Positions 4,354 to 28,575 of a stretch of DNA of 28,575 nt are shown piece by piece. The stretch lies in the IMG/VR virus record IMGVR_UViG_3300021091_000313, positions 1 to 28,575 of that record, one strand, 5' to 3'. This DNA is from a virus. Positions within the stretch are counted from its first letter, which is position 1. Each line of letters opens with the position of its first letter. Under the pieces are notes generated by a model. The model saw only the letters and a program-made list of their open reading frames with translations, ran no database searches and was not told the origin of the DNA. The position numbers were made by a program, and so were the translations under genes.

Positions 4354-7300
4354 TTATGCTAAGGCAATCACTCGTAAATCTTTAATTTTTGGTGCGACTG
4401 CCGTGTTGGTTGACAAGAATACCACCTTAATGGCAAAGTATTTAAATCCACTAAACGACCTGCCGTCTGGTGTTGTGTATCCAATTGAGTTATTTAGAAT
4501 ACGATAAATCTCTTGACTTGATGCAGTTGTTGCATAAGCAGATTCTACTGTCAAAAATGTGTTATTAACAATTGAAGCAATGCGTCTTTGAAGTCTTGAT
4601 GTACCAACGGCAATTTCGGCGCCCACTTGTAACTGTTCTAGGAAGACTGTGTTTGCACCAACAACATCTACAGAGCCATTTGTAATTGAAACTCTACCAG
4701 TTAGAAGTCTAGAACCACCAGTTTTCTTAGAGGTAGGAACAATGTATTTTTCTTCATTGTATGTTGAGGCATCTTGATTGGTTGTAGATGTACCATCAAG
4801 TGTCATTTCATTGTAGAATTTAAAGTCAAATGGATCGGTATCACTTTCACTCAATACTTTATAGTAAACTTTAATGTTAGTACCTGGTGGTCGATTAACA
4901 CCAAGATATGCAACAATGTCAGCCGCTTCAAATCCGTCATTTAATTCAACCACACGGGTAATATATCGTGTAAGAGATGAATATGGTCCTGTTGGATTTT
5001 CTTCTGCTTTACTAATAACAGTAACGCCAGAACCATTTGTTGTGAAGTTATTTTTAACTGTAAGATGATTGTTGTTTGTAACAGATGCAATTTGACGATA
5101 TTCTTCACCAAACAATGCGTATTCACCAACATCGATTTCAGTAGTAAATTGAGTGCCAACACCAGCAACAATATTATTACCACTAGAATCATACAATACT
5201 GTTCCAGTTAATTGATTAAAGGTTGAATTATTAACAATGGTTTGTTCCAAATAAGTACGCATTCTCTCTAAGTCAATATATGGAGATACATTGGCATTCT
5301 GCGTAACCATTGTTGCTCTTACAGTAATTGATTTATCTACAGGAAGATTTGATATTTCATTATCCGTATTTGCAAGCAGTTGGATTGCTGGCAATTGAAT
5401 GCGTTCAAGATTCTTCACACCATTGAATGTGCTAAGTGTAAATGATCCATCAGCAGTTCTACCTTCAAATATAATATTTGATTTTGGTGTTGTTAGATTT
5501 TCAATGTTCAATGAATATGCATTATATGAAAAATTTCCACCAGTATTTGCCCATGGCTTGTTCTGTAGAACAACAGTCGCAGGCGTTGTGCTGAATCTTG
5601 CAGTTCTTAATTTAAATTTGACATCCTGATTCTGTCTTGGTATCCATGTGAAATCGTTTGCTGAGGTAAACAACATACCCGTTGCTGGTTGTTCAGTAAT
5701 TCTCAGATTAACTTCTGGATTGGTAATGTCAAACTCACCAAGTGTCGCAACAAACACATTGAAGTCTGTCACATTACCATCAGGTTTTGCAACCCAACAA
5801 TATTCTACACCAGGAGGCAAGAAGATTGGATTTGCAAATGTAAATGTGGTGTTTGCAGTACTGTTATTACTTAATTTAATTTCATCGTGTTCTCGCCTTG
5901 CAACTTCACCACCAATTACGCTTCGTGTTGGAAAGCCATTTAGCATTTCACGAATTTCGCAAGTCACACCTTTCTTAGCGGTGTCTGGTGCTTTTGTTTT
6001 GAAGTACAAGTCTAGTGAAGTAACATACACACCTTCTGGATATGTTTCTTCATCAATATAGAAACTTTGTGAGAGTGGGTCATACCATTGGCGAAGAACT
6101 GTTCTTGTTGTTTCATCTCTAAGTGTAACTCTTCTTGTTGTGCCATCACCCCTAAGTGTTTGATTTGCAAAACCATTAAATGTAAATGGTCTTGTATTGA
6201 CAACATCATAACCTTTTGTAACAGATGTACCTTGTGCAAAAATAGATTGTGTTGCAAGTGTGCTTGCTTCTGAAACATTGTCTGTTGGGCTGTCGGTCAA
6301 TCTAAATGATCTTTGACCAACATAGAATTTTCCTTCTGGAACTCTAAAGACACCAATTACTATGTTGCTTCTTACAGTAAGATCATTAAGAGCACCACGG
6401 GTATATTTTGATGCATCAGCCTGAAGAATACCATTTGTATCAAATAGATTAAACAAACTATTTACATCAGCACCAGTTTTTAATGTGATTTGAGCGCAAT
6501 TTGCAGTTACATCTTCACCATCAAAGAACGCATAAAGTTTTGCACCATCTTTCATACCTTGTGAAATAAACACAAAATCTCTTGGACGCATGAAGTGCTT
6601 GACACTAATATCTGCTACACGCTCGGTTACAGAATTGATTGCCTCATTAGCAAGTGTAAAGTTTGCTTGAATTTCATTGAGTGTTTGGTTTTGTGTAGTA
6701 ACTGTTCTTGTATCTCGAAAGTCAGTAACCAAAGTACCACTTCTACTACTACCGGTTGTTGATGTGACTGTGGTAACAGGAGTTTCACCAACCCAATGTC
6801 TTAGATGTGGGGCAACAACGGTGTTCCAAGAATTTGTCAATGCTCTAAAGTTATCTGTAATACCTGTTAAGTCTACTACTGAGTTTGCCTCTGGTCTAAA
6901 AGTTGTATCGATCCAGTTATCTGTTGCTGGAACAATTGTCATGTCACCAGACCAAGTAAATGTAAGTTCTTGTGCAAGGTTGATTGTTGTAGAAGCAAAT
7001 GGCTGATTAATGAAATCTTGTTCAGTATAGTTTACATATACTTTTCTACCAGGTGTCTTTTTAAAGTTTGTAGATGATCCTTCATTTAAAACAAGTTCTA
7101 CTTGAACCTCATTGTTTGCATAGGCAGTAGCGTAATTTCCTCTAGTATCAATTCTAACTCTGTTGCCATCAGGATTAAACACATCATGAATGTTATGCCC
7201 TCTGAATGAATCTACAAGAATACCATTTTTGAAACGATCAAATCCATCGTTGTCAACTTCAACTTTAGTTTGCGCTTGTTTTTCTAGTTCGCTAAGTGTT

Positions 7301-10300
7301 GCGTAGTATTCAATCTGTTCAATACGCTTATTCATTCTACCAATTTCACGCATTGTAAATCTACGATTCTTATAAGAATCAATACGAATATCAGTCGCAA
7401 GAGATGGATAAACAGGAATTGTAATCTCTGCTAATTCTAGTGTGTCTGGAATTGATGGTGGTGGAGATGAAAGAGGATAGCCAGGAGAACCATCATTGAT
7501 TCCCAGCGCACCATTTTCATCAATGAATAGTTTTGCTTTTCTACCTTTGTAATAAATCAAGTCTGAATCAAAGTTTGATGCTGGTGTTGGAAAGTGTAAG
7601 CCACCAGTTGGAATCTGATATGCTCCAGTATCAATTGGATTGGTGTTTGGGCTGGCTGCCGCTTTGATTGGTCTAAAATCAAGACAATCACGAAGACTAA
7701 ACAATTCACCAGTTCTAATTGATCGATAAGAAGGAACTTGTTCAGTTCGAATTGTTGTACTTGTTGTTGTAATATCATTGACTGGATACGAATCAAATGA
7801 AAGATATCCAATACCTTGTGAAGTATCGTGTGTAAAGTGATCAAAAACAACAAGAAGATTTCCTGTTGGTTTTATACCAATGTTTGGTGTAATTGTTCCG
7901 TGTTCGTATGAAGTATCTCTTTGACCATTGTCAAGAGTATATAAACTTGTAACATCTGTATTGCTTGTTGTTGCAGTTACACCAAAACCACTTGATTGAT
8001 AAACTGCACGAATTTGATAAATGTCACCATATCCTAATCCATATGGACCAACAAGCCCATTTGGATGTGTGTTTGGATTGATTTGAACTTCACGGCTTGC
8101 GTTAAGTGTTTTACGAGTTTCTCTTGCATTTGCACGATCCATAATTACTGAAACTCTTGCGGCAAAACCTGAACCAATGCTAGTAATTAGCCCAGTTTCT
8201 TTTAAATCAATGTCAACTGTTTGTGGTGGAGAACCTGTTAATACTGTTCTATTAGCGCCAGTTGATCCAATGCCTGAAAGTTTAATTGGGCGCCCAGCAG
8301 GAAATACTTTGTAAATTGGCTGATTGCTTAGTGTTGATGAAAATGCTGAAGCAACAGTCAAAACAGCACTATTTGTAATTGAAGTAATAATTCTGTCTTG
8401 TGAACCAACACGAATTACATCACCAACTTGAAATTGTGTTGTAAATAATGTTGTTGCACCAGGTAAACTTGAAACTGTAGTGCTACCGCTTGTTACATTC
8501 GCAGTACCAGTAAGTGCGCTAGTGTTTGCAGTATTTGTTGGTATTACAAGATAATTTGTATTCTTAAGCCCTTCAGTTGCACCAGAAGAAAATGTTTCAT
8601 TCAAGTCTGTGGTAGCAAGTGTTACTGCACCAAAGCCGTTAAAGTTTGCAGGAAATTCTTTTCTAAATTGAAATCCTGATTCTACATTGTTATTGTCATC
8701 ACGAATTGTTCGAATACCAGTGTATGGAAGTTTAAAAATAGATGATTCAAATGCAGTTTCTTTAAGTGTCGCATTACCCAATGTATCAACGACCACATCA
8801 GCAAATCGATTTGGAAAACTACCGCCAGTATCATAGAATGCACGAACATCTTGAAATCTCTTGCCTTGATTCATTGCAATGTCATAGATGTATAAATCAT
8901 ATTTTGCATCAGCAGTACCAACTGTACCTGACACATACTCAATTGCTCTCACTCTTGCTTCACCAATTTTTGTTCCAGTAAGTGTTGTGGAACTAAAACT
9001 ATTATTTGAAATTGCTTGTTGTGCAGTATCGTAAAGATCAATCTTTGTTGATTCCATGAAGTCCCATGTGCCAACAAGTTCTTTAACAGGAATGTAACTA
9101 CCAATAATAATTGAAGTTTTTACCTGTTCAACATACTGTGTGTCAGTACCTTTTCGTACTGGTGTAAAAATTTTCGTGAGAAGTTCGTTTCTATATCCTT
9201 TGACATAAGAAACAAATGGATCAGTTTCAATGACAAGCAATTGATTGTTGCCATTTTCTGCAACAGTAAACTTACCACCGTTGTCATTGATTCTTAGATG
9301 TTCACGAATAAAAATTCTTGGATCAGAAAGTGTGTAGTTTCCTGATTCTTCAAATGTTCTTTTAGCAAGTGCATCTTCTAATTTGCTTTCTACTTGCTCT
9401 GTAAATTTCTTTGCAATGCTACCATTGATAACTTCGGTGATTGGTACAAATTCTGATTCGTCTGTTACTGCATCAACTTCTACTTTTGCAAGAACAGTAT
9501 CAATTTTAAGTCGATCAGCGCCAAGTGCTTGGAAGTTTGGTGTGCCTTGTGCATTGTCAAGAAGTGTTTGATCATCAACAGTATCAATAAATGTTTTAAC
9601 TGGAATTACACCAACTTTATATGATGGCTTGTTTGTATACTTGTCAAGAACAATTGTTTGACTATCATGCTTAACAAAGTGGTCAGCCACATAGATTGTT
9701 CCATCAGCAATTGTATATTTGGAACCATATTCAAATGTTTCTTGTGTAGCAAGCCCTTCATCTACAATTGTGAAGGTTGCTCTAGATGTTACAGTATTTG
9801 CGTATGCAGTATTTGGAGAATCTGCAATGTCATCAATGAGTACAAAAACTCTTTCGTTATTTTCAAATTTTGAAGATGTTCTCTTATCATAAAGCGCACC
9901 CACATTCATAGTAATAATGCCACCATTAGAACCTTGTGTGTTTGCAGTAAATGGAACAGTATCAGGAGAACCCACAAGATCACCAACGAATACTCTAAAT
10001 TCGGATGTAAGTGGGTCCTGATAGAATGCTTTGATAATTCCGCTATTGCCAGAATTAAATGTGATGGTATTACCTAAAGTAATAAATGATCCGGTAGCGG
10101 CAACACTTAGAATGACAGAGCCAGTTGATTCATAGTTGATGAAAAGAGTTTTTGGATCTTCGCCTTCAAGTTCGGAGACAAGACCAACATAGGCACGGCA
10201 ACCAGTGTTCGCACCTACAACTCTTTGACCGACAAACTCATCAATATCAACTTCAACAGAGTTAAACTCAGTTTGAAGTTTTACATACTCCATTCTTAAG

Positions 10301-10518
10301 TCTAAACTCTGTTCGCATCCATCAACAATTGATCCTTCACTAAAAAAGTATTCAGCAAAGCGTTGAATCTGCTTTTGCTGATAAGTCTGCATTTGTGTGA
10401 GTTCTCTAGCCTGGACTGCTCGACCAGGTCTATAGAGAACTCTTACATACTTTTTATCTTCATCATAATCGTCAAAGTATGGACCAATATTTAAATCTAC
10501 ACCACCGGGATTTGACAT
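4354..10518 (-). CDS. Giant baseplate/fibre-associated virion protein, DUF4815-like (2054 aa)
   Basis: This is the largest gene in the window. The N-terminus (NIGPYFDDYDEDKKYVRVLYRPGRAVQARELTQMQT and on) matches my memory of DUF4815-type proteins, large structural proteins common in marine T4-like phages. A helical segment (LELAEITIPV through RIEQIEYYATLSELEKQAQ) lies near residues 1030-1095. Three copies of a beta module of about 70 aa lie near residues 667-739, 1768-1838 and 1934-2006. Each has the pattern G-T-V, G-T-xF, VG-x-I-VG, R-I-SI-NN, LTV, I-YR. The gene comes straight after gp8, where T4 carries gp9/gp10/gp11, so a role in the baseplate periphery or fibre attachment is likely, but there is no clear gp10 homology. 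Two AAAGGGT motifs lie just upstream of the ATG. The frame is intact throughout. Confidence 0.88.
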   Translation of the reverse strand: MSNPGGVDLNIGPYFDDYDEDKKYVRVLYRPGRAVQARELTQMQTYQQKQIQRFAEYFFSEGSIVDGCEQSLDLRMEYVKLQTEFNSVEVDIDEFVGQRVVGANTGCRAYVGLVSELEGEDPKTLFINYESTGSVILSVAATGSFITLGNTITFNSGNSGIIKAFYQDPLTSEFRVFVGDLVGSPDTVPFTANTQGSNGGIITMNVGALYDKRTSSKFENNERVFVLIDDIADSPNTAYANTVTSRATFTIVDEGLATQETFEYGSKYTIADGTIYVADHFVKHDSQTIVLDKYTNKPSYKVGVIPVKTFIDTVDDQTLLDNAQGTPNFQALGADRLKIDTVLAKVEVDAVTDESEFVPITEVINGSIAKKFTEQVESKLEDALAKRTFEESGNYTLSDPRIFIREHLRINDNGGKFTVAENGNNQLLVIETDPFVSYVKGYRNELLTKIFTPVRKGTDTQYVEQVKTSIIIGSYIPVKELVGTWDFMESTKIDLYDTAQQAISNNSFSSTTLTGTKIGEARVRAIEYVSGTVGTADAKYDLYIYDIAMNQGKRFQDVRAFYDTGGSFPNRFADVVVDTLGNATLKETAFESSIFKLPYTGIRTIRDDNNNVESGFQFRKEFPANFNGFGAVTLATTDLNETFSSGATEGLKNTNYLVIPTNTANTSALTGTANVTSGSTTVSSLPGATTLFTTQFQVGDVIRVGSQDRIITSITNSAVLTVASAFSSTLSNQPIYKVFPAGRPIKLSGIGSTGANRTVLTGSPPQTVDIDLKETGLITSIGSGFAARVSVIMDRANARETRKTLNASREVQINPNTHPNGLVGPYGLGYGDIYQIRAVYQSSGFGVTATTSNTDVTSLYTLDNGQRDTSYEHGTITPNIGIKPTGNLLVVFDHFTHDTSQGIGYLSFDSYPVNDITTTSTTIRTEQVPSYRSIRTGELFSLRDCLDFRPIKAAASPNTNPIDTGAYQIPTGGLHFPTPASNFDSDLIYYKGRKAKLFIDENGALGINDGSPGYPLSSPPPSIPDTLELAEITIPVYPSLATDIRIDSYKNRRFTMREIGRMNKRIEQIEYYATLSELEKQAQTKVEVDNDGFDRFKNGILVDSFRGHNIHDVFNPDGNRVRIDTRGNYATAYANNEVQVELVLNEGSSTNFKKTPGRKVYVNYTEQDFINQPFASTTINLAQELTFTWSGDMTIVPATDNWIDTTFRPEANSVVDLTGITDNFRALTNSWNTVVAPHLRHWVGETPVTTVTSTTGSSRSGTLVTDFRDTRTVTTQNQTLNEIQANFTLANEAINSVTERVADISVKHFMRPRDFVFISQGMKDGAKLYAFFDGEDVTANCAQITLKTGADVNSLFNLFDTNGILQADASKYTRGALNDLTVRSNIVIGVFRVPEGKFYVGQRSFRLTDSPTDNVSEASTLATQSIFAQGTSVTKGYDVVNTRPFTFNGFANQTLRGDGTTRRVTLRDETTRTVLRQWYDPLSQSFYIDEETYPEGVYVTSLDLYFKTKAPDTAKKGVTCEIREMLNGFPTRSVIGGEVARREHDEIKLSNNSTANTTFTFANPIFLPPGVEYCWVAKPDGNVTDFNVFVATLGEFDITNPEVNLRITEQPATGMLFTSANDFTWIPRQNQDVKFKLRTARFSTTPATVVLQNKPWANTGGNFSYNAYSLNIENLTTPKSNIIFEGRTADGSFTLSTFNGVKNLERIQLPAIQLLANTDNEISNLPVDKSITVRATMVTQNANVSPYIDLERMRTYLEQTIVNNSTFNQLTGTVLYDSSGNNIVAGVGTQFTTEIDVGEYALFGEEYRQIASVTNNNHLTVKNNFTTNGSGVTVISKAEENPTGPYSSLTRYITRVVELNDGFEAADIVAYLGVNRPPGTNIKVYYKVLSESDTDPFDFKFYNEMTLDGTSTTNQDASTYNEEKYIVPTSKKTGGSRLLTGRVSITNGSVDVVGANTVFLEQLQVGAEIAVGTSRLQRRIASIVNNTFLTVESAYATTASSQEIYRILNNSIGYTTPDGRSFSGFKYFAIKVVFLSTNTAVAPKIKDLRVIALA

Positions 10519-24305: not shown

Positions 24306-24746
24306 ATGGCATACAGAGGCAGATACAAACCAGCGAACCCACAAAAATACAAAGGCGATCCGACAAACATCATTTACCGCAGTTTACTGGAGCGTAGATT
24401 TATGGTATGGTGTGACACGAATTCCTCTGTACTTGAGTGGAACTCTGAAGAGGTGGTCATACCATACAAATCCCCAATTGATATGCGATATCATCGTTAT
24501 TTTGTAGACTTTTGGGTACGATATCGTGATCGCAATGGCAATCTTAAAGCATGTCTGATTGAAGTCAAACCTTACAAACAAACAATGGAACCAAAGAAAA
24601 AAGAAGGTTTAGTAAAGCCAACAAGGCGATATCTGAATGAAGTCATGACATGGGGCGTCAATCAAGCGAAATGGAAAGCGGCAACAGAGTATTGTTTAGA
24701 CAGAAATTGGGAATTTAAGATACTCACAGAGAAACAATTGACATAA
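24306..24746 (+). CDS. 4: Head completion protein gp4 (PD-(D/E)xK nuclease fold)
   Basis: The product is 146 aa (T4 gp4/gp50 is 150). The nuclease core is visible: E29 in NIIYRSLLERRFMVW, D68 in RYHRYFVDFW, and E86-x-K88 in ACLIEVKPY, a TnsA-like arrangement. The conserved IEVKPYKQT, the WGVNQAKWKAATEYC segment and the final ILTEKQL match the family. gp4 is needed to finish DNA-filled heads before tail joining, and may trim DNA at the portal. It heads the rightward arm. No good ribosome binding site is seen; the nearest is AAAGG about 30 nt upstream, so initiation may be weak or leaderless. Confidence 0.95.
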   Translation: MAYRGRYKPANPQKYKGDPTNIIYRSLLERRFMVWCDTNSSVLEWNSEEVVIPYKSPIDMRYHRYFVDFWVRYRDRNGNLKACLIEVKPYKQTMEPKKKEGLVKPTRRYLNEVMTWGVNQAKWKAATEYCLDRNWEFKILTEKQLT

Positions 24747-25374: not shown

Positions 25375-25956
25375 ATGTTCAGCATAACATCATTTAAAAA
25401 CAATGTCAAGATCGTAAGACCAAATCTGTTTTATGCAGAGGTAACTTTGCCACCAACAGTTGCGGCCGCCGTAGGAGATAATAGTTTTAACAACACCTTT
25501 CGTTTTCGTTGTCAGTCAACTGAGTTTCCAGGAAGAACCATTGCAACAACCGATGACATTGCATTTGGTCCAACTGTAAAATTTGGATATGATGTAACTT
25601 ACAATGATCTCAATCTTCAAATCATTGCATCTGAAGACATGACAGAAAGAAAAGTGTTTGAAACATGGATGGACAACATTGTAACAAAATCAGGAACAAG
25701 CGGTAGTGAAGGTACTGGCGGATTTGTTCGCTATTACAATGATTATGCACAAGGAGGCAAAGTAACAATTTATCAGGTCAACGATCAAAGAGTACAACTT
25801 GCTAAGTGCGAACTCAATGGTGCCTTTCCACTTGGTATAGGACCAATGAATTTGTCATGGGAAGAGTTTGATAGTTATCAAAGATTCGCAGTAACAATTG
25901 CTTATAGATATCATGTTAATGACTTTACTCAGAAAACACTTTCTGAAATCACATAA
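25375..25956 (+). CDS. Tail-tube-fold protein, gp54 (tube initiator) or gp19 type
   Basis: The product is 193 aa. It fits the T4 gp19-like tube fold: RFRCQSTEFPGRTIATTDDI, VKFGYDVTYNDLNLQIIASE with MTERKVFETWMDNIV, YYNDYAQGGKVTIYQVNDQR, AKCELNGAFPLGIGPMNLSW and a closing AVTIAYRYHV strand. gp54 and gp19 share this fold. The true tube gene 19 normally lies between sheath and portal genes, while this one lies among gp48, gp26, gp51 and the tape measure, so the baseplate-tube initiator gp54 is the better guess. It starts 2 nt after the restored stop of the broken gene and has no clear ribosome binding site of its own, so it probably relies on translation of that gene. Confidence 0.8.
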   Translation: MFSITSFKNNVKIVRPNLFYAEVTLPPTVAAAVGDNSFNNTFRFRCQSTEFPGRTIATTDDIAFGPTVKFGYDVTYNDLNLQIIASEDMTERKVFETWMDNIVTKSGTSGSEGTGGFVRYYNDYAQGGKVTIYQVNDQRVQLAKCELNGAFPLGIGPMNLSWEEFDSYQRFAVTIAYRYHVNDFTQKTLSEIT

Positions 25957-25971
25957 TTAAGGAGAAACATT

Positions 25972-26718
25972 ATGGCTTTACCACAAATTAATACACCAAC
26001 CTTTGAATTGACTTTGCCTTCAACAGGCCAACAAGTTCGATACAGACCATTCTTGGTCAAAGAGCAAAAGATTCTTCTCATGGCTCTTGAAAGCAAAGAA
26101 TCAACTGAGATGCTTCGTGCAATTAAGCAGATCATTTCAAACTGTTCTTTATCAGATGCAGTTAAAGTTGATACGCTTCCTATGTTTGACTTAGAGTATT
26201 TCTTTCTTAGACTTCGTGCAAAGTCAATTGGTGAAACAATTGATTTAAATTTAACACACTTTGAAGGCACCAATCGAAATATGGAAGAGTGCAATCATAC
26301 AACAAAGTATTCTTTAAATTTGATGGAAGTAGAAGTTGAAAAAGATCCAGAACATCAAACCAAAATTGTTCTTGATGAAGAAAACAAAATTGGTATTGTT
26401 TTAAAGTATCCAACAATCTCACTTGCAGATAAGATGCAAAGAGCAGGTGAAGGAAAAAATCAAATGGATGTAGTTGTTGATGTTGTGTGTCAATGTATCG
26501 ATTATATTTACGATGCAGAAAACACATATCCTGCCTCAGAATCTACAAAACAAGAATTGCAAGACTTCATTAACAATCTTGGGCAAGAACAATTTGCTAA
26601 AATCAATTCATTCTTCACAACAATGCCAAAGTTAAAACATACAATTCATTGGACATGTGAAAAGTGTGGAACGAAAGATTACATTACGCTGGAGGGCATG
26701 GCAAATTTTTTCGGATAG
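25972..26718 (+). CDS. 26: gp26-type baseplate hub / tail-assembly protein (T4_baseplate family)
   Basis: The product is 248 aa (T4 gp26 is 208). AAGGAG sits 7 nt before the ATG. The family pattern is clear: FELTLPSTGQQVRYRPFLVK, then KEQKILLMALESKESTEMLR and VDTLPMFDLEYFFLRLRAKS with GETIDL. Four likely metal ligands, C107-x-H109 (ECNH) and C229-x2-C232 (CEKCG), suggest a zinc-ribbon-like site; the second pair is 16 residues from the C-terminus. The gene ends in a slippery sequence (F-F codons TTT TTC, then GGA TAG) and overlaps the gp51 frame. T4 gp26 is listed as a hub assembly protein. Here its position directly before gp51 and the tape measure suggests that it is the short form of a tail-assembly chaperone pair. 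Confidence 0.93.
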   Translation: MALPQINTPTFELTLPSTGQQVRYRPFLVKEQKILLMALESKESTEMLRAIKQIISNCSLSDAVKVDTLPMFDLEYFFLRLRAKSIGETIDLNLTHFEGTNRNMEECNHTTKYSLNLMEVEVEKDPEHQTKIVLDEENKIGIVLKYPTISLADKMQRAGEGKNQMDVVVDVVCQCIDYIYDAENTYPASESTKQELQDFINNLGQEQFAKINSFFTTMPKLKHTIHWTCEKCGTKDYITLEGMANFFG

Positions 26719-26918
26719 CCTTGTCTAGTGATAATCTGACCAATTATTACAAGACAAATTTTGCTTTAATGCAACACCATAAATATAGTTTGACTGAATT
26801 AGAAGAAATGATGCCGTTTGAAAGAGAAGTTTATATTTTACTTCTAACACAATTTATTAAAGAAGAAAACGAAAGACAAAAACAACAAGAGGCACAAGCC
26901 CGTTCAAAAAGAAGATAA
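25972..26918 (+). CDS. Predicted gp26-gp51 fusion by programmed -1 frameshift (315 aa)
   Basis: If ribosomes slip back one base at 26703-26712, residues 1-247 of gp26 continue into 68 residues of the gp51 frame (FF then RIALSSDNLTNYYKTNF). Slippage at either of the two overlapping heptamers gives the same protein. This would be the long form of a G/GT-like chaperone: the gp26 part would interact with one partner and the gp51 tail with tube or tape measure. The prediction rests on four facts seen here: the -1 phase, the two canonical heptamers in frame, the nearby purine-rich ribosome-binding-like sequence, and the lack of a good separate start for gp51. Frameshift efficiency cannot be judged from sequence. 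Confidence 0.6.
26664..26918 (+). CDS. 51: gp51-type baseplate hub assembly factor (probably made through frameshift from gp26)
   Basis: The conserved part, from about 26712, is 68 aa: RIALSSDNLTNYYKTNFALM, QHHKYSLTELEEMMPFEREV, YILLLTQFIKEENERQKQQE. This matches gp51-type proteins of marine T4-like phages from memory (NYYxTNFALMxYHKYS...ELExMxPFER). T4 gp51 is longer. gp51 is needed for hub assembly but is absent from the virion. The given start is an in-frame GTG at 26664 lying inside gp26, with no credible ribosome binding site. The next options are a TTG at 26721, 24 nt from the closest GGAGGG, or an ATG at Met 20 of the conserved part that would lose the YYKTNF motif. The first 16 residues from the GTG (WNERLHYAGGHGKFF) do not look conserved. 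The stop is 5 nt before the tape-measure ATG. Confidence 0.85.
   Translation: MWNERLHYAGGHGKFFRIALSSDNLTNYYKTNFALMQHHKYSLTELEEMMPFEREVYILLLTQFIKEENERQKQQEAQARSKRR
26691..26696 (+). promoter_or_regulatory. Internal Shine-Dalgarno-like GGAGGG before the slippery site
   Basis: GGAGGG inside gene 26 ends 6 nt before the first heptamer and 9 nt before the second. This spacing resembles the stimulatory internal SD of E. coli dnaX. The only nearby in-frame ATG (26698) would make a six-residue peptide in the gp26 frame, so a role in starting a gene is unlikely. Confidence 0.55.
26703..26712 (+). promoter_or_regulatory. Double -1 slippery heptamer A AAT TTT TTC
   Basis: In the gene 26 frame the codons are gcA AAT TTT TTC gga tag. 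A AAT TTT (26703-26709) and T TTT TTC (26706-26712) are both X XXY YYZ heptamers in the correct phase. They lie 4 nt before the gp26 stop and lead into the open gp51 frame. A weak AT-rich hairpin can be drawn downstream (8 bp, GTGATAAT at 26728-26735 with ATTATTAC at 26743-26750, one G-U pair), 15 nt past the site, which is farther than usual. Confidence 0.65.
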
Positions 26919-26923
26919 AATAA

Positions 26924-28575
26924 ATGGCAGATTTAGTCGGAAAATTAGGACAAACAATTAAAGGATCAATGTCTAGTTTTGGGTCAGGCTTTAAACAAGC
27001 CGCCATCTCAGGCAATCCTGCGCTTTTTGGTGCCGCTCTCAATGGTGTCGAGAAAGGTCTTGGTGCAATTGGAAAAGAATTTCAAAAAGACCGTGAAGAT
27101 AGAAGAAGAGACCGCCAATTCAATGAAGAAAATCAAAATGAGCAAAGAAAATTAGACAATGATATTCTCAAGTCTTTGCGTAATATTGAAAAACTTCTTG
27201 AAGCAGTTCTTGGCGGCAAAAAAGAAAAGAGTGGCACAGGTTTTCTAGGAAGTTTGCTTGCTGGATTAACTGCGGCATTAGGAAAATTTTTAGATGACAT
27301 ACAAGGTTGGGGTAAAAAAATTGTTGATTTCTTCACCAAAACTTTTGATGCCCTTGCTAAAAAATTTAATGATGCGGTAAAATTTTTAAAGAGTGGTCTT
27401 AACAAATTCATACAATTTTTTGATGACTTAATTGGTCGTTTGCCAAACCTTGGTCCTAAAATAAAACAGTTCTTTGATAACATTGGAAAATTCTTTGATG
27501 ATATTTTTAAATCAATCAGAGGAAGTAAGTTAGGGCAATTTGCTGAAGATATCATTAAAGGAATTAAAGACTTCTTTACTAATGCGTTTTCTAGATTAAA
27601 AAGTAGTGCCTTTGTTCAATTCTTTGATGACATTGTTACTGGAGTTAAAAACTTCTTTACTGATGCATTTTCTAGATTAAAATCATTTTCTCTTACTGGA
27701 TTTTTTGATACTATCGTCACAAAACTTGCAAAAGTATTTGATGTAGAGATTGATCTATTCAACAGACTTAAAAGCATTTTTCAAACAGAATTTTTTAATG
27801 GTCGCTTAATTCAAAGTTTTGATGACCTTGCAAAAGTCTTTTCTGAAACAGGAATTTTTGGTAAGTTTGCCGCAACACTTGGGCTTGTATTTGAAACACT
27901 TAAGACTGGTGTTATAGACAGAGTTATGGGCGTGTTTTCAAATATGGGTGGATTCTTTAAGGGCATTTCAGAATTTACCGGCTTAGATGATTTTATGAAA
28001 ATGACTGGTGCAGGATTAGCCAAAGCACTTAAAGCATTGCCTATTATTGGTAATTTCATAATGTTAATTGAAGGTATCTTTGCGGCATTTGATACTGAAG
28101 AAATTGCAAAAGCACTTGATAAAGAAGTGACTGAGGTAACTCTTTTCGACAGGTTTAAAGCACTCATCGCAGGCATTCTAGGTTCAATCTTTGGTCTTCT
28201 TGATTTGGCGGCAATGGCTATCAAAGCCGTATTTGATATTGATTTGACTTCTGGAGAAGATTCATATCAAAAACGAGTAACAAGATTTTTAACTTCATTT
28301 ATTTCAGATAGTTTAGAGTGGGTTGGAAGTTTCTTTCAACTGATTGGTGGTGTTCTTAAATTAGATGGCGCACAAATTAAAGATGCAATGACTAACATGG
28401 CTTTAATTGCTGGTGATTGGATTGTTAGTACAATGAATATGATGATTAAAGTGTTAAATGGTGTAAGTGGTTTCATTCTTGATAGCGTCAAAAAAGTAGC
28501 AAAGTATGTTCCAGGTGGAGAGAAACTTGTTGATTCCGTAAGAGAAGCAGTTACTATTACAGAATTAGACAATAC
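26924..28575 (+). CDS. Tape-measure-like tail protein, N-terminal 550 residues (gp29 analogue; 3' end outside the window)
   Basis: The frame is open from the ATG at 26924 to the last base (550 codons plus two bases). Residues about 50-85 are highly charged and helical (KEFQKDREDRRRDRQFNEEN and on). The rest alternates amphipathic helices and hydrophobic segments (LGSLLAGLTAALGKF, KALPIIGNFIMLIEGIFAAF, FKALIAGILGSIFGLLDLAA), as in tape measures. A 27-residue unit (K-DFFTNAFSRLK and KNFFTDAFSRLK) repeats in the middle. It follows gp51 by 5 nt with no strong ribosome binding site, so translation is probably coupled. In T4 the length-determining hub protein is gp29 (590 aa); similarity to it is not obvious, so the name is by role and position. 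Such proteins span the tail tube lumen and set its length. Confidence 0.85.
   Translation, partial: MADLVGKLGQTIKGSMSSFGSGFKQAAISGNPALFGAALNGVEKGLGAIGKEFQKDREDRRRDRQFNEENQNEQRKLDNDILKSLRNIEKLLEAVLGGKKEKSGTGFLGSLLAGLTAALGKFLDDIQGWGKKIVDFFTKTFDALAKKFNDAVKFLKSGLNKFIQFFDDLIGRLPNLGPKIKQFFDNIGKFFDDIFKSIRGSKLGQFAEDIIKGIKDFFTNAFSRLKSSAFVQFFDDIVTGVKNFFTDAFSRLKSFSLTGFFDTIVTKLAKVFDVEIDLFNRLKSIFQTEFFNGRLIQSFDDLAKVFSETGIFGKFAATLGLVFETLKTGVIDRVMGVFSNMGGFFKGISEFTGLDDFMKMTGAGLAKALKALPIIGNFIMLIEGIFAAFDTEEIAKALDKEVTEVTLFDRFKALIAGILGSIFGLLDLAAMAIKAVFDIDLTSGEDSYQKRVTRFLTSFISDSLEWVGSFFQLIGGVLKLDGAQIKDAMTNMALIAGDWIVSTMNMMIKVLNGVSGFILDSVKKVAKYVPGGEKLVDSVREAVTITELDN
27569..27684 (+). repeat. Two copies of a 27-codon repeat in the tape-measure-like gene
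   Basis: ACTTCTTTACT followed by TTTTCTAGATTAAAA occurs near 27569-27603 and again near 27650-27684, an 81-bp period. The protein units are DFFTNAFSRLK and NFFTDAFSRLK. Weaker FFD and FFDD motifs upstream and downstream suggest older copies. Confidence 0.8.

Follow-up and report, generated by a model that had tools for sequence, protein, structure and literature searches.

Are genes 26 and 51 of T4-like phages two separate genes, or can they be one gene that is read in two frames? We addressed this question in IMG/VR virus record IMGVR_UViG_3300021091_000313, from which a stretch of 28,575 nucleotides, referred to here as the window, was analysed. In this stretch, gene 26 ends with GCA AAT TTT TTC GGA TAG, and an extension known as gp51 in the annotation of relatives is open in the −1 frame, just before the tape-measure gene. 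The initial annotation, made from the letters of the window, had proposed that the pair is fused by programmed −1 frameshifting. The features that it described, namely the end of gene 26, two in-phase heptamers, GGAGGG, the open −1 frame, and a 5-nt gap, were all found at the locus (Table 1). We conclude, with a probability of about 90%, that the 26/51 pair of this phage constitutes one tail-assembly-chaperone (TAC) gene whose long form is produced through a −1 ribosomal slip. What was observed directly is the gene architecture, the phase, the conservation of the slip site, the absence of conserved start codons, and the homology; we infer slippage and its rate, the roles of the stimulators, and the chaperone function.

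A −1 extension at the end of gene 26

The gene 26 product matched PF12322 (T4_baseplate) over profile positions 2–218 of 219 (E = 3.3e-65; 220.3 bits, with a Pfam gathering cut-off of 24.5) and phrog_150 (E = 8.1e-69). The −1-frame product matched phrog_634, named 'baseplate hub assembly catalyst' (E = 2.4e-30), and also the end of phrog_150 (positions 229–278 of 282, E = 1.2e-7), indicating that phrog_150 includes members with both parts in one protein. The extension has CGG at 26712 as the first and AGA, which ends at 26915, as the last of its 68 codons and is closed by TAA (26916–26918), 5 nt before the tape-measure ATG (26924). The gene order, tail tube, gene 26/extension, and tape measure, is the one found at other TAC loci.

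In the mechanism that we propose, most ribosomes would stop at TAG 26716 and yield the 248-aa short form (TAC-N), while a fraction would move back by one base on T_TTT_TTC (26706–26712), with tRNA-Phe occupying both the P and the A site. The GGAGGG that lies 9 nt upstream would probably aid this slip, and a hairpin beginning 8 nt after it perhaps does so as well. Slipped ribosomes would continue in the −1 frame to give a long form of 315 aa (TAC-NC), with the predicted junction ...EGMANFF/RIALSS... (slash at the junction), and the tape-measure protein would be coated by the short and the long form while the tail tube is assembled, as it is by gpG and gpGT in lambda. The predicted tryptic peptides are DYITLEGMANFFR, which spans the junction, for the long form and DYITLEGMANFFG for the short form.

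An identical gene with an identical junction was present in another IMG/VR contig (L001). The closest cultured relatives were Kyanoviridae cyanophages and pelagiphages, with gp26 identity of at most about 42%. Only one PF12322 gene was found in the 28.6-kb record, itself a fragment, and its extension lies in the −1 frame, so that the locus differs from the T4 type, which has two paralogous PF12322 genes.

Conservation of the slip site among relatives

We drew loci from seven IMG/VR scans and annotated isolates and obtained 141 junctions after dereplication. Of these, 130 were classified as frameshift type, in which a −1 extension follows the PF12322 gene and T_TTT_TT[C/T/A] is in phase; counts out of 130 below refer to this set. 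The other 11 comprised eight T4-type genes (T4, 44RR, an RB49-like phage, and RB43), two Ackermannviridae-like genes, and one locus (L106) in which the gene is interrupted early. In all 130 junctions, the heptamer was in phase and no more than four codons from the gene 26 stop. Such slip sites span Kyanoviridae, Pootjesviridae, and Straboviridae of Vibrio and Aeromonas, and were also found in phages of Agrobacterium, Stenotrophomonas, Acidovorax, Pseudomonas, and Desulfovibrio. Pelagibacter phage Mosig, an apparent exception, was resolved: its T_TTT_TTN sits nine codons before the stop. With the heptamer and the −1 phase universal in this alignment of frameshift-type relatives, the proposal of a frameshift-fused pair was upheld.

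Two overlapping heptamers in the 0 frame, both canonical X_XXY_YYZ, had been put forward as slip sites. The first, A_AAT_TTT, was kept in only 31 of the 130 junctions; it was therefore ruled out as the functional site and is probably incidental, leaving T_TTT_TTC (26706–26712) as the slip site. This distinction, which of the two heptamers is under selection, is one of two additions made by the present analysis, the other being the possible stimulator swap described below. In-phase T_TTT_TTN occurs four times in the 8759 codons of the window's main open reading frames, a frequency that predicts ~0.002 occurrences for the final four codons of a single gene, making its position at the end of gene 26 unlikely as chance.

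The codon usage at the slip site followed the same pattern. The codon before the slip always ended in T (AAT 66, AGT 37, GAT 17, TCT 9, and GCT 1), and the first Phe codon was TTT in 130 of 130, compared with a gene 26 background of 1041 TTT to 504 TTC. The last slip codon varied (TTC 115, TTT 13, and TTA 2). Six fixed bases followed by a free one are the mark of an X_XXY_YYZ site; as the rows are related, we claim no exact probability for this pattern.

The extension was likewise retained. It measured 53–72 codons in all 126 closed loci and was broken by stops in none of them; the +1 frame closed at a median of five codons. At the protein level, it was conserved across families.

Alternative explanations

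If gp51 were a separate short gene, it would need its own start or reinitiation after the gene 26 stop. The usual starts near the junction of this phage were only GTG 26664, TTG 26721, and ATG 26769; the last lies well inside the conserved core, and neither of the others has a Shine–Dalgarno (SD) sequence. An in-frame ATG was present somewhere near the junction in 39 of 130 relatives, and public records do annotate gp51 as a separate gene. However, the start positions were not conserved among relatives, a start with an SD was found in only 3 of 130, no ATG, GTG, or TTG preceded the conserved core in 41 of 130, where the −1 frame was scanned from its upstream stop, or from a point 60 nt before the slip, through the 14th codon after it, and a −1 stop codon directly abutted the slip codon in 12 of 130. 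The gp51 start also differs from phage to phage in public records, several of which carry no gp51 annotation at all, and a joined gene was annotated in none of the records fetched. A separate gp51, which would leave the invariant in-phase heptamer unexplained and has its counterpart in T4 fused to the other part, is therefore improbable, and the earlier statement that gp51 has no credible start stands. Sullivan et al. (2010, PMC3037559) described gp51 of cyanophages and marine vibriophage as short by about 200 N-terminal residues. We take these missing residues to be gene 26, supplied by the frameshift.

The same long protein would result if RNA polymerase slipped on the T run and added a U. 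Every junction indeed has at least six T's, and 13 of 130 have seven or eight, but the remaining 117 have only six, and transcriptional slippage usually needs longer runs. Moreover, it has no need of a ribosomal phase or of an SD-like element held at a constant 9–10 nt, and does not predict which third positions are free, all three of which were seen; we regard it as even less probable than a separate gp51. Least credible of all is that the −1 frame is a relic no longer translated or an artefact of sequencing. Gene 26 alone does make up a complete PF12322 domain, as this explanation would have it, but the extension is open in 126 of 126 loci and conserved between families, the junction recurs unchanged in the second IMG/VR contig, and the two parts are fused in T4.

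A TAC role remains the best inference for the function of the gene 26/51 product. The AlphaFold model of the gene 26 product had a mean pLDDT of 91.8. Foldseek comparison with the PDB returned few, poor matches, among them the HK97 tail assembly chaperone 2ob9 (probability 0.44, TM 0.47) and YqbN 3klu (TM 0.45), and comparison with viral models returned 'baseplate hub' proteins of many phages. No sequence match was obtained by profile search of the PDB. According to PMC3004832, tail assembly in T4 depends on gp51, which is absent from the final particle.

Several points weigh against a frameshifted TAC gene. The six T's encode Phe-Phe in both frames, and amino-acid constraint could explain part of their conservation. 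In Ackermannviridae T765 and IME250 (L092, L299) and Vibrio phages K475 and D504 (L093, L300), a homologous −1 extension persists in the absence of T_TTT_TTN, and these phages may slip at a weaker site or restart; apart from this distant Ackermannviridae-like group, whose junction is different, no relatives were found that had lost the site while keeping gp51 in the −1 frame. In K475 and D504, a TAATG overlaps the gene 26 stop, as a separate gp51 would have it, and the extension is therefore likely made by a different route in these phages. The Foldseek E-values to TAC structures were above 1, with all values against the PDB at 1 or higher, and we found no experimental evidence for the fusion peptide in these phages.

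Residues 229–232 of gp26 (26656–26667) read CEKC, a zinc-ribbon-like CxxC, and another Cys is present at 107; a putative zinc site joining them is possible. The CxxC was absent from 9 of 63 rows of alignment A2 and was replaced by NPKT in S-RSM4-like gp26, indicating that any metal site would be dispensable.

Candidate stimulators and possible coupling to the tape measure

GGAGGG ends 6 nt before A_AAT_TTT and 9 nt before T_TTT_TTC and is likely a ribosome-pausing stimulator. An SD-like 4-mer was present at −18 to −5 from the heptamer in 62 of 130 loci, compared with 0–8 of 130 at seven control offsets, and was concentrated at −9/−10. The Glu codon creating this motif was GAG in 41 cases and GAA in 20, versus 761 and 2420, respectively, elsewhere in gene 26 (binomial p about 1e-12, a value overstated by the relatedness of the rows). 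By clade, the motif was found in 19 of 23 junctions near this phage, 40 of 63 others, and 3 of 44 from S-RSM4-like cyanophages. In most of this phage's clade, it took the form of GAGG 9–10 nt upstream of the slip.

The possible hairpin downstream of the slip in this phage had a folding energy of −12.1 kcal/mol, with a z-score of −4.8 for a trimmed 42-nt segment and −2.3 for an untrimmed 60-nt window. A hairpin conserved across this phage's clade was ruled out, as only 68% of cells were paired and covariation did not exceed that of controls. At S-RSM4-like junctions, the 50 nt directly after the slip folded far better than shuffled sequences (mean z −3.8, 44 of 44 below −1.5). A strong stem-loop, GCACTCTTCCA...TGGAAGGGTAC, about 1–50 nt past the slip, was present in all 44 dereplicated junctions of this group (L082, L115–L194), with 94% of cells paired and weak covariation. 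An alignment-wide search of the collection (alignment A1) yielded no conserved stretch.

An ATG open reading frame, the tape measure, begins −40 to +10 nt from the extension stop in 97 of 126 loci, with the same overlap in 53 of these 97. This position suggests translational coupling with frameshifted ribosomes. We tentatively propose, at slightly less than even odds, that an invariant slip site is served by stimulators swapped between lineages (SD-like GAGG or, in S-RSM4-like phages, a hairpin) and that, through frameshifting, translation of the tape measure could be tied to the amount of long chaperone produced. Because covariation in the S-RSM4-like hairpin is weak and the hairpin of this phage is not kept across its clade, the swap is offered as a suggestion rather than a result. 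These junctions provide a compact natural set for the study of a fixed slip site with changing stimulators.

Two other genes of the window were noted. A 2054-aa protein encoded on the − strand (4354–10518) matched phrog_358 (E = 1.2e-303, functionally unknown) and adjoins baseplate wedge genes. A head-closure protein (phrog_218) encoded on the + strand (24306–24746) matched the Pfam Tn7_TnsA-like_N endonuclease domain (8e-26).

Table 1. Features of the gene 26/51 locus, in window coordinates.
Feature	Position	Strand	Remarks
Tail tube gene, immediately upstream	25375–25956	+	phrog_45, E = 1.1e-33
Gene 26, short form (TAC-N)	25972–26718	+	248 aa; TAG at 26716–26718
GGAGGG, SD-like element inside gene 26	26691–26696	+	Candidate stimulator; 62/130 junctions at the equivalent spot
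A_AAT_TTT, first heptamer of the initial annotation	26703–26709	+	0 frame; 31/130 relatives only
T_TTT_TTC slip site	26706–26712	+	0-frame TTT TTC; re-pairing on TTT TTT
−1-frame extension (TAC-C; gp51 in relatives' annotation)	26712–26918	+	phrog_634, end of phrog_150
Possible RNA hairpin	26721–26757	+	8 nt after slip site; weak
Tape-measure gene, runs off the window	26924–28573	+	phrog_58, E = 8e-10

T4 genes 26 and 51 and other known systems

T4 gp26 (short) and gp51 (long) are homologous to the pair of this phage: both match PF12322 (8.8e-64 and 3.9e-52, respectively), and they match each other (E = 2e-6). Unlike in this phage, they are encoded by two divergent genes on opposite strands, with no frameshift. 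T4 gp51 has both parts fused in one frame, with PF12322 at residues 1–201 plus the extension, and covers positions 13–280 of 282 of phrog_150; its sequence passes the position that corresponds to the slip point and goes on into the extension, and T4 gp26 ends at that position. In the trees, one branch separated the T4-type genes from all others (support 99/99; 99/97 when rooted on the Ackermannviridae-like rows), which suggests that the T4 split was one event. The initial annotation had taken the separate genes of T4 to be a derived or alternative state. A paralogous pair arising by a single split agrees with our results; derivation in T4 rests on parsimony, because a grouping of the T4-type genes with the frameshifting Straboviridae was neither shown nor rejected (p-AU 0.51). 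An ancestral frameshift with a derived T4 state is the simpler reading, with a root that is not firm. These findings support the view that a frameshifting gene gave rise to T4 genes 26 and 51 through a single duplication. Frameshifting is reportedly conserved in several T4-like groups, with the T4 group using genes 26 and 51.

In RB43 (L098, 1501–2794), the genes for the long gp51 and the short gp26 are arranged in tandem and share a strand, whereas those of T4 are divergent. This arrangement is a possible intermediate of the duplication.

Frameshifted TACs are already known in T4-like phages, and this phage is a well-supported further example, not the first. T4-like TACs were identified by Vladimirov, Gautam & Davidson (2022, Virology 566:9–15, doi 10.1016/j.virol.2021.11.003), as cited in later papers; they represent the same gene family and the same idea. 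The PRFect paper (PMC10885494) cites Vladimirov et al. (2022) for some T4-like phages with short and fused long TAC genes that do not frameshift, and the phage Adele paper (PMC12846349) credits them with poly-T as a −1 signal in TAC-N genes of T4-like phages. This phage differs from those TACs in belonging to an uncultured lineage with at most 42% gp26 identity to isolates. The Vandenendeviridae/Andersonviridae TAC, as described in the phage Adele paper, is similar in its conserved −1 frameshift, a poly-T motif (GTTTTT) at the TAC-N end, and a −1 frame open throughout, but belongs to other phage families and has another motif. Lambda gpG/gpGT (Levin 1993, Xu 2004) resembles this phage in producing short and long forms via a −1 slip just before the stop and in the order tail tube, TAC, and tape measure. 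Unlike lambda, this phage has a different and larger N domain (PF12322), T_TTT_TTC as its slip site, and an extension of about 68 aa.

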